Of a stretch of 64,000 bases of DNA, positions 16,829 through 21,520 are shown piece after piece. The notes under the pieces were generated by a model. That model saw nothing but the letters and a program-made list of their open reading frames with translations, was not told the DNA's origin and made no database searches. Both the position numbers and the translations under genes were made by a program. Position 1 is the first letter of the stretch. Every line of letters starts with the position of its first letter. The stretch spans positions 2,249,725 to 2,313,724 of the forward strand of contig NZ_JH980292.1 of NCBI RefSeq assembly GCF_000314005.1. Direction: 5' to 3'. The DNA is from Spirulina subsalsa PCC 9445 (GTDB lineage: Bacteria; Cyanobacteriota; Cyanobacteriia; Cyanobacteriales; Spirulinaceae).

Positions 16829-17366
16829 TGTAACTAGAGGAATAGGGGATTTGACACTCCATCGGGCTAAAGCCACGAGGATTTTTTAGAGGGGATCACC
16901 AACAAATATTAGTTATTGCTCCTAACAACCACATTGTCGTACCGTACCTTAGCACTAATACAACAGCAGTCCACAAGGCGGTGTCAATTGCCGCTACACT
17001 GTTAGCTTTTGCTTTCAGTTTACTTTAGATTTATGCTTTTCACTCGCTTAACGTCTTGGCTTGTGGGGGCTAGGCATTTGATTTATTTGTACTAACTGCT
17101 ATTTCGGTCAGTCATCTTTTCAACAGGTGTCCCACCACCCTTGAGTTTCACCGTACAATTCAGGTCTTAGTGGAATGCTTCATTTTGCGAGATTTCAGCC
17201 CTATTTAGTCAAGATTTGTGAATAATTAGGCGCATTGGGTTGAATTTTTGAGCATTTTTGTAAAAATGGATACAGAAATAAGGCGGCTTTATTTTTTCGT
17301 CAGAGCCGGACCAATATTTATTTACACAAGTCGGCTGATCGGGATAACAGTTAGCCTCAGATGTGA
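16829..17366. other. Long spacer without a recognised gene
   Basis: About 490 bp with several T-rich runs and no coding frame of note. It lies upstream of the NO-locus remnants, so it may hold the remains of lost promoter or coding DNA from that locus. Confidence 0.4.
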
Positions 17367-17411
17367 TTGCACATTTTGCCAACTTCAAAGCAAATCCTAA
17401 TTATCAATTAT

Positions 17412-17562
17412 TCATTCCCCAGTCTCAAAAATCTTGAGGATTTGTTCTTTGCCTGTTGGGGAAACATTAAAAACTTTGACCCGTCCAGATTTGACAATAA
17501 AAAAGCCAGTGGCGGGTTCTCCCTGCTTAAAAATGACTTCCCCTTTCTTCAAAGATGGACGG
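17412..17562 (-). pseudogene. Fragment of a Crp/Fnr-family regulator
   Basis: Reading the minus strand from about 17562, the frame gives KKGEVIFKQGEPATGFF, then IVKSGRVKVFNVSPTGKEQI and LKIFETGE before a TGA at 17412-17414. This is the middle of a cyclic-nucleotide-binding-like domain of the Crp/Fnr family (KG..IF.QGEPA.G.., G.VKV...SP.G.EQIL..). The N-terminal start, the rest of the sensor domain and the whole DNA-binding domain are missing. Its upstream edge abuts the norB remnant on the other strand. Too short for the usual ORF cut-off but a clear homology by eye. Confidence 0.65.
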
Positions 17563-17711
17563 TGTGGTTACGGATTCCCGGTGACATCATGTTTGCCATC
17601 GGTGCAGTAGTGTTAATATATTGCGTTGCTCAAGCCCTGTTTGGCATTTTCCAACAACCCACCCAAGCGCAGCCCACAGACGCTTTAGTAACGTCGTCTT
17701 CGGCTCCCTAA
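17556..17711 (+). pseudogene. norB: C-terminal remnant of a quinol-dependent nitric oxide reductase
   Basis: The last 52 residues of the frame, from WTVWLRIPGDIMFAIGA through a final membrane helix to a Ser-rich tail, match the C terminus of qNOR/NorB, where W-LRIPGD-(I/V)-F-GA is conserved in the last helix. The remaining roughly 700 residues are gone. The upstream part of the same open frame (17367-17555) is antisense to the Crp/Fnr fragment and is not norB. NorB reduces NO to N2O in the membrane. Confidence 0.6.
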
Positions 17712-17802
17712 CCCGTCTGTAAGCCTGGGTCAGCTTGAGCTATTCTAACGACCCAGGCTAAACCCAATTCGTCCTTTTTACCCATTCTGAGAGAGAAAAA
17801 CC

Positions 17803-18177
17803 ATGGCAACCCTATACGAAAAACTCGGTGGAGCCGATGCCGTTAATTTAGCGGTTGATAAGTTCTATGAACGAGTCCTGCAAGATGACCGCATCAAGCA
17901 CTTTTTTGCTGATGTAGATATGGTCAAACAACGGGCGCATCAAAAAGCATTTCTCACCTACGCCTTTGGGGGTACGGATCAATATGACGGTCGCTATATG
18001 CGAGAAGCTCACAAGAAACTCGTGGAAAAGCACGGTTTAAGTAGTGAGCATTTTGATGCCGTGGCGGAAGATTTGATGGCAACTTTACAAGAAATGGGAG
18101 TTTCAGAGGAATTAATGGCAGAAGTGGCCGCCGTTGCTGCTGCACCTCAACACAAAAAAGATGTTTTGAATCAATAA
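17803..18177 (+). CDS. glbN: Group I truncated hemoglobin (cyanoglobin)
   Basis: A 124-residue 2/2 globin, cytoplasmic, that binds O2 and NO and in cyanobacteria is linked to protection from reactive nitrogen. The three histidines of Synechocystis GlbN are all present at the same numbers: His46 (E10) in QRAHQKAF, His70 (F8, heme ligand) in MREAHKKL, and His117, which forms the covalent heme link, in APQHKKD. Tyr22 (B10) is in KFYERV. A GAGAGAAAAA-type site precedes the ATG. It is the only intact gene of an otherwise broken NO-related locus. Confidence 0.95.
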   Translation: MATLYEKLGGADAVNLAVDKFYERVLQDDRIKHFFADVDMVKQRAHQKAFLTYAFGGTDQYDGRYMREAHKKLVEKHGLSSEHFDAVAEDLMATLQEMGVSEELMAEVAAVAAAPQHKKDVLNQ

Positions 18178-18210
18178 ATACAATCGTAAGCTGTTAGCAA
18201 AATGCTTAAA

Positions 18211-18236
18211 AATCCCCCTTCTTTTGCGGGGGGATT
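18211..18236 (+). terminator. Intrinsic terminator-like hairpin after glbN
   Basis: AATCCCCC pairs with GGGGGGATT around a TTCTTTTGC loop, 34 bp after the glbN stop. A T-run is only partial downstream (near 18249-18256), so it may be a weak terminator or an attenuating hairpin before the ric remnant. Confidence 0.55.
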
Positions 18237-18287
18237 GAAGAGATAAATACTTTTTTACTCAACAGTCCAGTTTTTAGGAGTCTAACC

Positions 18288-18386
18288 ATGACCACTTTCC
18301 AAATCAGTGACACGGTAGGGGCGATTGTTCAGGATCACCCCGCCCTTTCTCGGCTCTTTGAACAAGCCAAAGTAAACTATTGCTGA
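18288..18386 (+). pseudogene. Truncated RIC/YtfE/ScdA iron-sulfur cluster repair protein
   Basis: From an ATG at 18288, with TTAGGAG nine bases upstream, the frame gives TTFQISDTVGAIVQDHPALS and RLFEQAKVNYC, then TGA. This is the DUF542/ScdA_N domain of the di-iron RIC proteins, whose next residues should be a second Cys and Gly-Gly. A shifted frame just after it (KKKSTFAQ) may be the broken continuation. The di-iron hemerythrin-like domain is absent; rloB begins about 60 bp later in convergent orientation. Only 32 codons remain. Confidence 0.7.
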
Positions 18387-18982
18387 AGAAAAAATCTACC
18401 TTCGCTCAAGAGAATAAGCATCACGATTCAAGGTTTGCCGCTTCTATTATCATTTAACAAACCTGTTGAGTTCTTGCACCAATAAATGCACTGTTGTAGA
18501 AGGATTATCTATAGCAGGAATATGGGGATCATATTGATTGAGCAAATTTATAGCATTTCTAATAGCAGTAGGTTGCCTATCAAAAAGCTCATCATATATC
18601 TTCTCGCTATTTTTGTGATACTTGTGATTAAGAAGACGGTCCAACTTTTGAAGATAATCATTTCGAGGAATTCCAGTATTGAGAAACTCAAAGTGAAGAA
18701 CATACCATAATTCAAATGCTTCATTGGAATAAGCTACTTTGAAACCTTGATTCTCAGCATTTCTGATGGCATTATTGAAATCTTCTGGAGTCCAGGAATC
18801 TCGATCAAAAACGCACCATACCTGATCGTAATCTTCTCTTTCCTTCAAATCTTTCGCGCTGTTAAGCAACTTGCTAGGATTTTTTCCTACACCCTTAACA
18901 TCTATCTCAGCAACCAGAAGTGTTGAATCGGTACTTATGAACTAAGTACAAATGGACACACTAACCCTGTTAAGGGGTAAAT

Positions 18983-20079
18983 TTAACCAGGTGGCACTAG
19001 CTCTCTAAACCAGTGTACATAGCTAATTTTTTGACACATAAACGCCTGTAAATATCGCAATTTATCCAATAAAGATTTACCGAACTCTGTCGGTATCTTG
19101 AGCATATTTAGAAGTAAATAGGCAATCAGACAACTATAAATCTGGATTTCAATTCCGTTGATATTTTTAGGGATGAGGCGATCTAATTTGAGGTGCATCT
19201 TTAAAAATTTCCAAAGCAACTCAATTGACCAACGCAAACGATAAAACTCGGCAATTTCTTCTGAGCTAACTCCTCCTTCTCCCGTCTCGGGTAAGTTCGT
19301 TACTAATCGAAACTCAGTCTTTTTCTCTAAGTCGCTAAAACTCACGACTCTAGCTTCAATTTGTTCGCGACCTTGGCCTAGTAACAATTGCCATTATCTA
19401 GGAAAGTTAAGTGAACATTGTTCCTAATTCTCAGAACGAAGTAGCGATCCTTCAACTTTTGTAACAGGGCAATTTGAATTAGGCTAAAAAAGCCTCTATC
19501 CATTATTCCAACGCCATTAGCTGGAATTGATTCTAGGGTTGTATCGCCATATTTATAGTCATGACCTTGACCAAAATGAAGGAAGAGTCCGCCTGGAATT
19601 CCGGTGAAGAGATTTAGACCCGCAAAAAGCTTGACTTGGTGAACTTCTTGATGCCAGAGTAACTTACTGGTGAGAGTGACAATGGTTGAATCTAAGGGAA
19701 AAAGTTGTAGCTGATTGGATGGAATCTTATTCTGTTTAAGAAACTGTTGTGTTAGATGAACCCACAATTGATAAAAAATTTGAGGATCGCGATACTTACT
19801 GGCTTTAGAAAAGGTGGAAATATCAACAGACTCCCCCATAATATTAAGCCTCTTGAAGAGACTTCTCATACTGGTTTGACTCTGGTCAAGAACAAATTCA
19901 AGCCAAATGGAAACGAATTTAAAAGTATTTAAGACGGGATAGTCATCTTGAGGCAAATGACCGAGGCATTGTTTGACAATTTGAGGAAAGTTGGATAGAA
20001 TCAAGGGATTAGTTTTTTTAAAAAAGTAAGCCCCTATTTTAAAACAATAGGGGCTTTTTGTCAAGTTTTTTACTAACAT
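18983..20079 (-). pseudogene. IS4-family DDE transposase in two frames
   Basis: The first frame (20079 to 19378, 233 aa) has the catalytic Asp in PLDSTIVTL and the second Asp in GIMDRGFFS. The second frame (19387 to 18983) has the Y-2-R-3-E-6-K signature in FYRLRWSIELLWKFLK. The break is at about 19380, where the second frame is -1 relative to the first; no classical slippery heptamer is visible, so this is more likely a mutation than programmed frameshifting. A terminator-like hairpin lies in the first 20 codons. Confidence 0.82.
20030..20059 (+). terminator. Intrinsic terminator hairpin inside the transposase 5' coding region
   Basis: GCCCCTATT (20030-20038) pairs with AATAGGGGC (20046-20054), followed by TTTTT on the plus strand; a T-run also lies on the other side. 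It would stop readthrough entering from rloB-side transcription on the plus strand and would fold in the transposase mRNA near its start. Confidence 0.65.
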
Positions 20080-20233
20080 TCAACACTTCTGCTCAGCAAC
20101 ATCTTTAGGGACGCGAAAACTTCTAAAGTAGTTGGGTTCAGTTTTCTCTCCTTCGCACACAATCAAAAATCTCTGCCTGACTTCTTTAGTGTCAACTTTT
20201 CTAGGAGAGTATCCACGAGAATACGGCTTTCTT

Positions 20234-21520
20234 TTAGACATTGGATTCAATCAAGCGATTCAGATTGCCAATATATGGAATTGCACCATATCTCCCCTTA
20301 ATATAGTTACTTTCGAAAGATTCATCATTACTTATTTTGTACTCTGCAAGAGAGTATAAGTCTGTTGCGCTGTATCTATTCTTTTCAGTAAACCAAATCT
20401 GATCTCTACGAAAGATTTTATTACTGAGCAAGTTAGTATCATGAGTCATGAAAATTAGCTGGCCATTGTTTGGGTTTGCCTCCCTGGAGTTAAACAGCTT
20501 AACAATCGCAAGGCTAATTAAAGGATGAAGCCTTGCATCAAACTCATCAATAATTAGAATCTCTCCTTCTTTAAGAGCAGTTACGAGAGGTCCAGCTAAT
20601 GCAAAAACCTTTTTTGCACCTTCAGATTCATGGTTTTCTAAATTAAATTCTTCAATAGACTTGTAGTTTCCATCGGCATCAAATTTTCGATGAGAAATAC
20701 CTATTGAGGTTGCTTTACCTCCTGCTTCTTTAACAATAAGCCTCTTAAGCTCATCTGGCATTTCGTCGGGTAGCAAGTCAATTGTGAAATCTTCCTGTTC
20801 AACTTGTATCTCGCTAATCCCTAGATCTAGCTTCTTGATCAATTGAACAATATCAGCCTTATTCTTATCGTTTATAAAACATTTGACTGTATAATTTAGG
20901 TAAGCTCCATCATGAAGACCTGAAATAATATTTAACTTATCCGTTATCCATTCTAGAATTCTTTCCGCTATTTCAACGTTAAATTGAGCAGAAACAGAAA
21001 GGAAGAGTGCATTGCTTCTAGTTCTTTGCTGAACACCGTCAGCATTGTAGACTTTAGATGATTTAATGCTATCAAGTTGACGTTCAAATAGGCTCGTTTC
21101 CCTTATGTTAGGAACATAAAATAGCCACTCCGATATTACTCTCTTCTGAGTTGCTTCAAAGCCATATCTATACTTTCGTCCATCCATCAAAAATGCTAAC
21201 TCAAAGTATGATGGCTTTCCCTCAGTTTCTGTACTGAGCCTAAAAGGTTCTACCTTTATTTCATCTATGCTTTGAGTCTCTTTAGACGAATTGATCATAA
21301 ACCATTTCATGAAGCTTAAGCCTCTAGCAAGATTACTTTTGCCACTGGCATTTGCTCCATATATGGCAGAGGTCTTAAGCAGTTTCAGTTCTTCATCTAT
21401 CTCAAAAGTGTTGTTTGTATCAATACTCTTTTCTTTTGACACAAAATTTGCTGCCACCATACTAAAGGTGACTCGATCTTTGAATGACCTGTAATTACCA
21501 ACACTAAATTCGATAAGCAT
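20234..21520 (-). CDS. rloA: RloA-family AAA ATPase (SMC/OLD-like ATP-binding protein)
   Basis: The 428-residue product starts MLIEFSVGNYRSFKDR and has Walker A IYGANASGKSNL near residue 55. Late in the protein are Walker B GEILIIDEFDARLHP, the LISLAIVKLFN helix and the D-loop/H-switch FMTHDTNLL, the pattern of ABC/OLD-type DNA-associated ATPases. RloA is paired with RloB in loci near restriction systems and is thought to act in phage defence. It overlaps rloB by 8 bp (ATGTCTAA), implying coupled translation. It is intact while rloB is not. Confidence 0.88.
   Translation of the reverse strand: MLIEFSVGNYRSFKDRVTFSMVAANFVSKEKSIDTNNTFEIDEELKLLKTSAIYGANASGKSNLARGLSFMKWFMINSSKETQSIDEIKVEPFRLSTETEGKPSYFELAFLMDGRKYRYGFEATQKRVISEWLFYVPNIRETSLFERQLDSIKSSKVYNADGVQQRTRSNALFLSVSAQFNVEIAERILEWITDKLNIISGLHDGAYLNYTVKCFINDKNKADIVQLIKKLDLGISEIQVEQEDFTIDLLPDEMPDELKRLIVKEAGGKATSIGISHRKFDADGNYKSIEEFNLENHESEGAKKVFALAGPLVTALKEGEILIIDEFDARLHPLISLAIVKLFNSREANPNNGQLIFMTHDTNLLSNKIFRRDQIWFTEKNRYSATDLYSLAEYKISNDESFESNYIKGRYGAIPYIGNLNRLIESNV

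Follow-up and report, generated by a model that had tools for sequence, protein, structure and literature searches.

Why cyanobacteria retain a small haemoglobin, and whether nitric oxide (NO) is its job, is a long-standing question. Parts of a relevant gene neighbourhood are already known, namely the HcpR-norB pair (PMC1274295), the linkage of norB and glbN (PMC8400943) and a norA-norB cluster (PMC9403480). In Synechocystis, slr0449, a Crp/Fnr regulator gene divergent from the quinol norB, was counted among the HcpR orthologs, and a site TTGACnnnnGTCAA was predicted for it (Rodionov et al, 2005; PMC1274295). In Limnospira indica PCC 8005, norB and glbN are adjacent and both intact; the authors report their joint induction by gamma radiation and query the upstream region; hcpR, the operator and ric are not described there (PMC8400943). 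In Thermosynechococcus TA-1 and CL-1, ric (as norA, dnrN) and norB lie side by side together with three more adjacent genes, no glbN being named, and the authors inferred that this cluster was gained in block (PMC9403480). For GlbN itself, NO dioxygenase or NO-protective activity has been reported in Synechococcus and Synechocystis (reviewed in PMC3820574). No description of a locus that unites all four genes, or of its repeated erosion, was found in the literature searched, which covered few subscription papers.

The locus analysed here lies in a 64,000-nucleotide stretch of the Spirulina subsalsa PCC 9445 genome (the window). As in Synechocystis, a Crp/Fnr regulator gene and a quinol norB diverge from an operator of the form TTGACnnnnGTCAA in relatives of this strain, where glbN and ric follow norB as additional genes; the window, by contrast, retains only fragments of the regulator and of norB and has lost the operator. 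We infer orthology of the regulator to slr0449 from position and operator, not from sequence. The locus is very probably the recent wreck of an HcpR-controlled NO-defence cluster, of which only glbN is still whole, without its regulator, its operator and its former promoter.

Remnants around an intact glbN

About 1 kb of the window holds an hcpR remnant on the minus strand and, on the plus strand, the tail of norB, the whole of glbN and the start of ric. The locus and its flanks comprise the following features:

16842..17414, no strand: unassigned stretch from where same-genus synteny stops (16841) to the hcpR break
17412..17552, minus strand: remnant of hcpR/dnr (Crp/Fnr family), residues 36-82 of about 242, both ends gone
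17552..17556, no strand: deletion junction of hcpR (antisense) and the norB 3' end, from side-by-side flanks of loci L126, L123 and L163 and blastn limits
17556..17711, plus strand: remnant of norB with roughly the final 52 residues of a quinol NO reductase and the original stop codon
17722..17759, plus strand: 10-bp hairpin in the norB-glbN spacer (fold z -2.2), with similar GC-rich arms in Oscillatoria and Spirulina
17803..18177, plus strand: intact glbN, group 1 truncated haemoglobin (cyanoglobin), 124 aa
18288..18386, plus strand: ric/ytfE remnant, first 32 codons (18288-18383), then a TGA created by the breakpoint
18450..21520, minus strand: AbiL-like pair (AAA ATPase and RloB/AbiLii), a neighbour outside the locus that adjoins the ric break

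A sequence-only reading had named these four pieces, and profile searches, tblastn and the corresponding loci of relatives place their identity far beyond chance. The regulator piece (17412-17552, minus strand) matches Pfam cNMP_binding (E 6.6e-14) and NCBIfam Fnr (3.5e-6), and it shares 73-87% identity over residues 36-82 with hcpR from the nearer relatives (74% with that of Oscillatoria in tblastn). The norB piece was recovered by tblastn of the own genome with an intact NorB (E 1.7e-17, residues 722-773, about 721-773 being what remains) and shares 86% amino-acid identity with Oscillatoria NorB; because it comprises the C-terminal tail only, profile searches gave no Pfam and no relevant NCBIfam match. 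Where a complete NorB has about 760 residues with a haem-copper oxidase core, this stub lacks all catalytic residues. The ric piece matches positions 2-27 of the 56 of Pfam ScdA_N at an E-value of 2.4e-4, which falls short of the curated cut-off, and is 91% identical to the start of Oscillatoria ric; it thus offers a partial ScdA_N motif without the di-iron haemerythrin-like domain of RIC/YtfE. Over each of the pieces, DNA homology to the syntenic loci amounts to 76-82%. The divergent arrangement of regulator and norB, intact in relatives, survives in the window as remnants only, and the window holds no complete regulator with a complete NO reductase.

GlbN is whole. It matches Pfam Bac_globin (1.9e-17) and the cyanoglobin structure 1S69 over residues 1-124 (E 4e-68), and the distal His46, the proximal His70 and the haem-linking His117, which had been pointed out before and were now read directly from the sequence, mark it as a TrHb1. 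It belongs to the same family as the cyanoglobins (GlbN) known from Synechocystis and Synechococcus PCC 7002, from which it differs in sitting amid the ruins of an NO cluster; an NO-protective role is assumed for it. The hairpin in the spacer upstream of glbN has no T run behind it.

The earlier claim that the partners are broken and have no intact copy in the window extends, by homology searches, to the entire genome (5.3 Mb, two contigs). With intact NorB as tblastn query, the stub is the sole norB match genome-wide, and the ric stub likewise is the sole ric match; an hcpR ortholog is missing from the genome, whose other Crp proteins are at most about 30% identical to the regulator of the window. 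Flavohaemoglobin was considered as a replacement and rejected, as no match in the genome attains the family cut-off and the better match is a cyclase-globin fusion. At G000:C2:1085568-1085960 (L255:1471-2619, minus strand) the genome encodes a 382-residue protein with a C-terminal globin domain and, judged by eye, a cyclase-like N-terminus; this fusion is a possible second haem sensor.

The intact cluster and its operator in relatives

Neighbourhoods of glbN were fetched from relatives and searched with intact HcpR, NorB, GlbN and RIC. As anchoring on glbN favours loci in which this gene has been kept, regulator- and norB-anchored searches were added. The complete order was found in Pseudanabaena FACHB-1998 (L151), whose hcpR has one in-frame stop inside the matched stretch:

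L151, 2655-3347, minus strand: hcpR
L151, 3523-5829, plus strand: norB
L151, 6001-6369, plus strand: glbN
L151, 6439-7155, plus strand: ric

Oscillatoria HE19RPO (L126, also G136; GlbN 93% identical) carries all four genes in the same order, with ric interrupted by a repeat after about 38 codons and continued on another contig. This repeat (L044:1-160, L084:130-165) has the ends CTAGCCCTGTCAAGG and is flanked by a duplication of 10 bp, GGTAAAAAGA, and the two contigs with ric parts would join. Spirulina S17.Bin059 (L123, G011; GlbN 94%) and three further genomes (G019, G020, G429) have hcpR-norB-glbN; in Spirulina S17.Bin059, the nearest intact relative, ric is not adjacent, which counts against our preferred explanation. 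The same genome has two glbN genes (L152, L123), one behind norB and one upstream of suf-like genes. In the window the pieces are ordered, oriented and spaced as in the intact cluster, and because relatives carry the same order and orientation, the common origin that the sequence-only reading had proposed for the pieces is supported, the full order of Pseudanabaena FACHB-1998 included.

Between hcpR and norB or glbN, relatives carry an exact palindrome TTGACTTAAGTCAA (or TTGACCTAAGTCAA), which fits the HcpR consensus TTGACnnnnGTCAA predicted in 2005 beside Synechocystis norB (PMC1274295). In 2.04 Mb of fetched loci we found 32 distinct predicted operator sites, all but one of them (31/32) within 500 bp upstream of hcpR, norB, glbN or ric. 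In many intact loci norB follows 54-97 bp behind the operator, and in several Pseudanabaena and Phormidesmis loci, where norB is absent, glbN does so at 69-80 bp. From its divergent place beside norB and this operator, the regulator of the window is best called HcpR/Dnr-type (PMC1274295); its closest named solved structures include the NO sensor DNR (3DKW, E 1.3e-25). The intact cluster would accordingly be under NO control: hcpR would face norB-glbN-ric across a divergent promoter region with a single HcpR operator TTGACTTAAGTCAA, and HcpR would sense NO, NorB turn it into N2O, GlbN bind or oxidise it and RIC mend damaged Fe-S centres. In the window the operator between the regulator and the first gene has been deleted, and the whole genome contains zero exact copies of TTGACTTAAGTCAA. 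A match to TTGACnnnnGTCAA lies at about position 19876, within a transposase region. Upstream of the window's glbN, no consensus promoter scored above shuffled expectation.

The genetic context of GlbN thereby becomes clear: many cyanobacteria have its gene downstream of an exact HcpR operator, with genes for an NO reductase and for Fe-S repair as neighbours.

Breakpoints, age and competing readings

Homology to hcpR runs from 17415 to about 17552-17554 and homology to norB begins at 17555-17556; two or three bases are common to both. The fusion of crp and norB had been placed near 17555-17562, and its position has to be corrected to 17552-17556. Compared with Oscillatoria and Spirulina, the junction lacks some 2.6-2.8 kb, comprising codons 1-35 of hcpR, the promoter region together with the HcpR operator, and norB as far as residue about 720. 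The single deletion postulated before explains the fusion but not the whole state of the locus: the hcpR piece has a second broken end at about 17414, and DNA homology of ric ends at 18385 in comparisons with four relatives, which brings the breakpoints required to at least three. A single deletion of about 2.6-2.8 kb would have taken the N-terminus of hcpR, the shared promoter and operator and nearly all of norB, and two further breaks the remaining hcpR and the last 85% of ric; glbN would still be transcribed from some other promoter and still be functional.

At the ric break, a selenocysteine at the TGA after Tyr-Cys was considered and rejected, since homology to the four relatives stops at 18385 and never resumes; a 57-residue ric match across the TGA was a gapped tblastn extension that a local search did not reproduce. 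The AbiL-like defence pair begins 65 bp past the break. Its AbiLi is matched with an E-value of 2.4e-101, and its RloB gene is split at about 18915-20091 by an IS whose inverted ends match and whose 9-bp duplication is CTCAGCAAC. On the other side, the sole same-genus genome searched (G001) agrees with the window at 83-94% as far as 16841, beyond which it diverges, beside a defence/IS region. For the sequence 16842-17414, a second copy that would point to an IS or repeat was sought in the genome, and none turned up.

The hcpR, norB and ric stubs show no stop, no frameshift and no excess of non-synonymous change, and they diverge from relatives about as intact copies do among themselves (for the hcpR piece, pN is 0.12 between window and Spirulina and 0.15 between Oscillatoria and Spirulina), the dN/dS values of the stubs resting on 32-51 codons. 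Because the stubs still look coding and are free of frameshifts, decay of the locus is likely recent. Comparison of glbN with its counterparts in Spirulina, Oscillatoria and Myxosarcina gave a dN/dS of about 0.05; the gene is, or was until recently, under purifying selection.

That the pieces arrived already broken, as the scar of a partial horizontal transfer or recombination, in a lineage that never had a working cluster and kept glbN as a useful passenger, is an unlikely alternative. G001 lacks norB, ric and the glbN of the window, its own GlbN being 65% identical; its synteny with the window stops at 16841, next to the defence/IS region; and the nearest relatives of the window's GlbN (Spirulina S17, Oscillatoria HE19RPO, Myxosarcina) come from three different families. 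However, the GlbN tree is poorly resolved around the window, and order, strand and spacing as in the intact cluster are most simply explained if such a cluster was once present. Decay of a formerly intact cluster, the reading that we prefer, is neutral as to how the cluster came to be there: because the same-genus G001 is without the locus, acquisition as a block followed by decay fits as well as ancestry in the genus.

We consider it very improbable that the stubs were retained for a function, for example as a short ScdA-like peptide in the case of ric, or as a new protein in the case of the hcpR-norB fusion, whose frame (17367-17711) is open for 114 codons through the junction. The absence of stops and frameshifts and the low dN/dS against relatives would agree with this, but low dN/dS is expected anyway if the breaks are recent, the ric stub stops in the middle of the ScdA_N motif and has no di-iron domain, and nothing catalytic is left of norB. 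Least credible of all is that short reading frames look alike by chance or that errors of sequencing or assembly produced the pieces; the pieces are short and two of their profile matches weak or absent, yet homology over each piece at the DNA level already refutes chance and the assembly consists of two contigs only. A regulon known in part has here undergone ordinary decay, for which the documentation is unusually good.

Erosion of the cluster across cyanobacteria

Nine genomes, including that of the window, combine a norB stub with a whole glbN, and their nine sets of breakpoints all differ, which argues for repeated erosion of norB. The norB residues left in the other eight are:

Calothrix PCC 7716: 6-313
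Calothrix FI2-JRJ7: 371-439
Pseudanabaena UBA1465: 5-48
Pegethrix: 1-56 and 747-767
G021: 189-767
G049: 6-356 and 652-774
G089: 6-121 and 595-767
G105: 694-767

In the GlbN tree, which has few well-supported branches near the window, the norB-stub state must have changed at least four times to fit the starred branches; counting independent losses from it was dropped for weak resolution, and the figure serves as a lower bound only. Myxosarcina has a C-terminal piece of hcpR (residues 173-238) about 60 bp before glbN, which is 92% identical to that of the window, and represents parallel decay with other breakpoints.

The proposal that an NO regulon was lost except for the globin is true of the genome of the window but is no general rule. 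Elainella Prado103 (L163:6001-6099) keeps hcpR, norB and ric and has glbN as a C-terminal stub (residues 92-124), and G347 and G384 have norB and ric with no adjacent glbN, G347 (hcpR, norB, ric) being arranged similarly to the Thermosynechococcus cluster. A rule that glbN is the durable member was therefore rejected, and set against the genomes with norB stubs these cases indicate that members are lost in various combinations. A bolder reading, which we regard as possible though somewhat doubtful, is that the four-gene locus is a labile cyanobacterial cassette that repeatedly loses members by preferred routes: internal deletions of norB would often put glbN in its place behind the operator, and loss of the operator, as here, would have freed the globin from NO control and turned it from inducible to otherwise expressed.

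The variants amount to natural experiments, with the globin on its own, devoid of NorB, RIC, HcpR and operator, in the genome of the window, under the operator without NorB in Pseudanabaena, Phormidesmis and Acaryochloris, and lost with the rest kept in Elainella; comparing them would bear on what the globin does alone. At four loci (L132:5914, L137:5829, L142:5826 and L004:2002), where neither hcpR nor norB was found beside glbN, an exact HcpR operator lies 87-175 bp upstream of this gene, and these glbN would be orphan members of the HcpR regulon.
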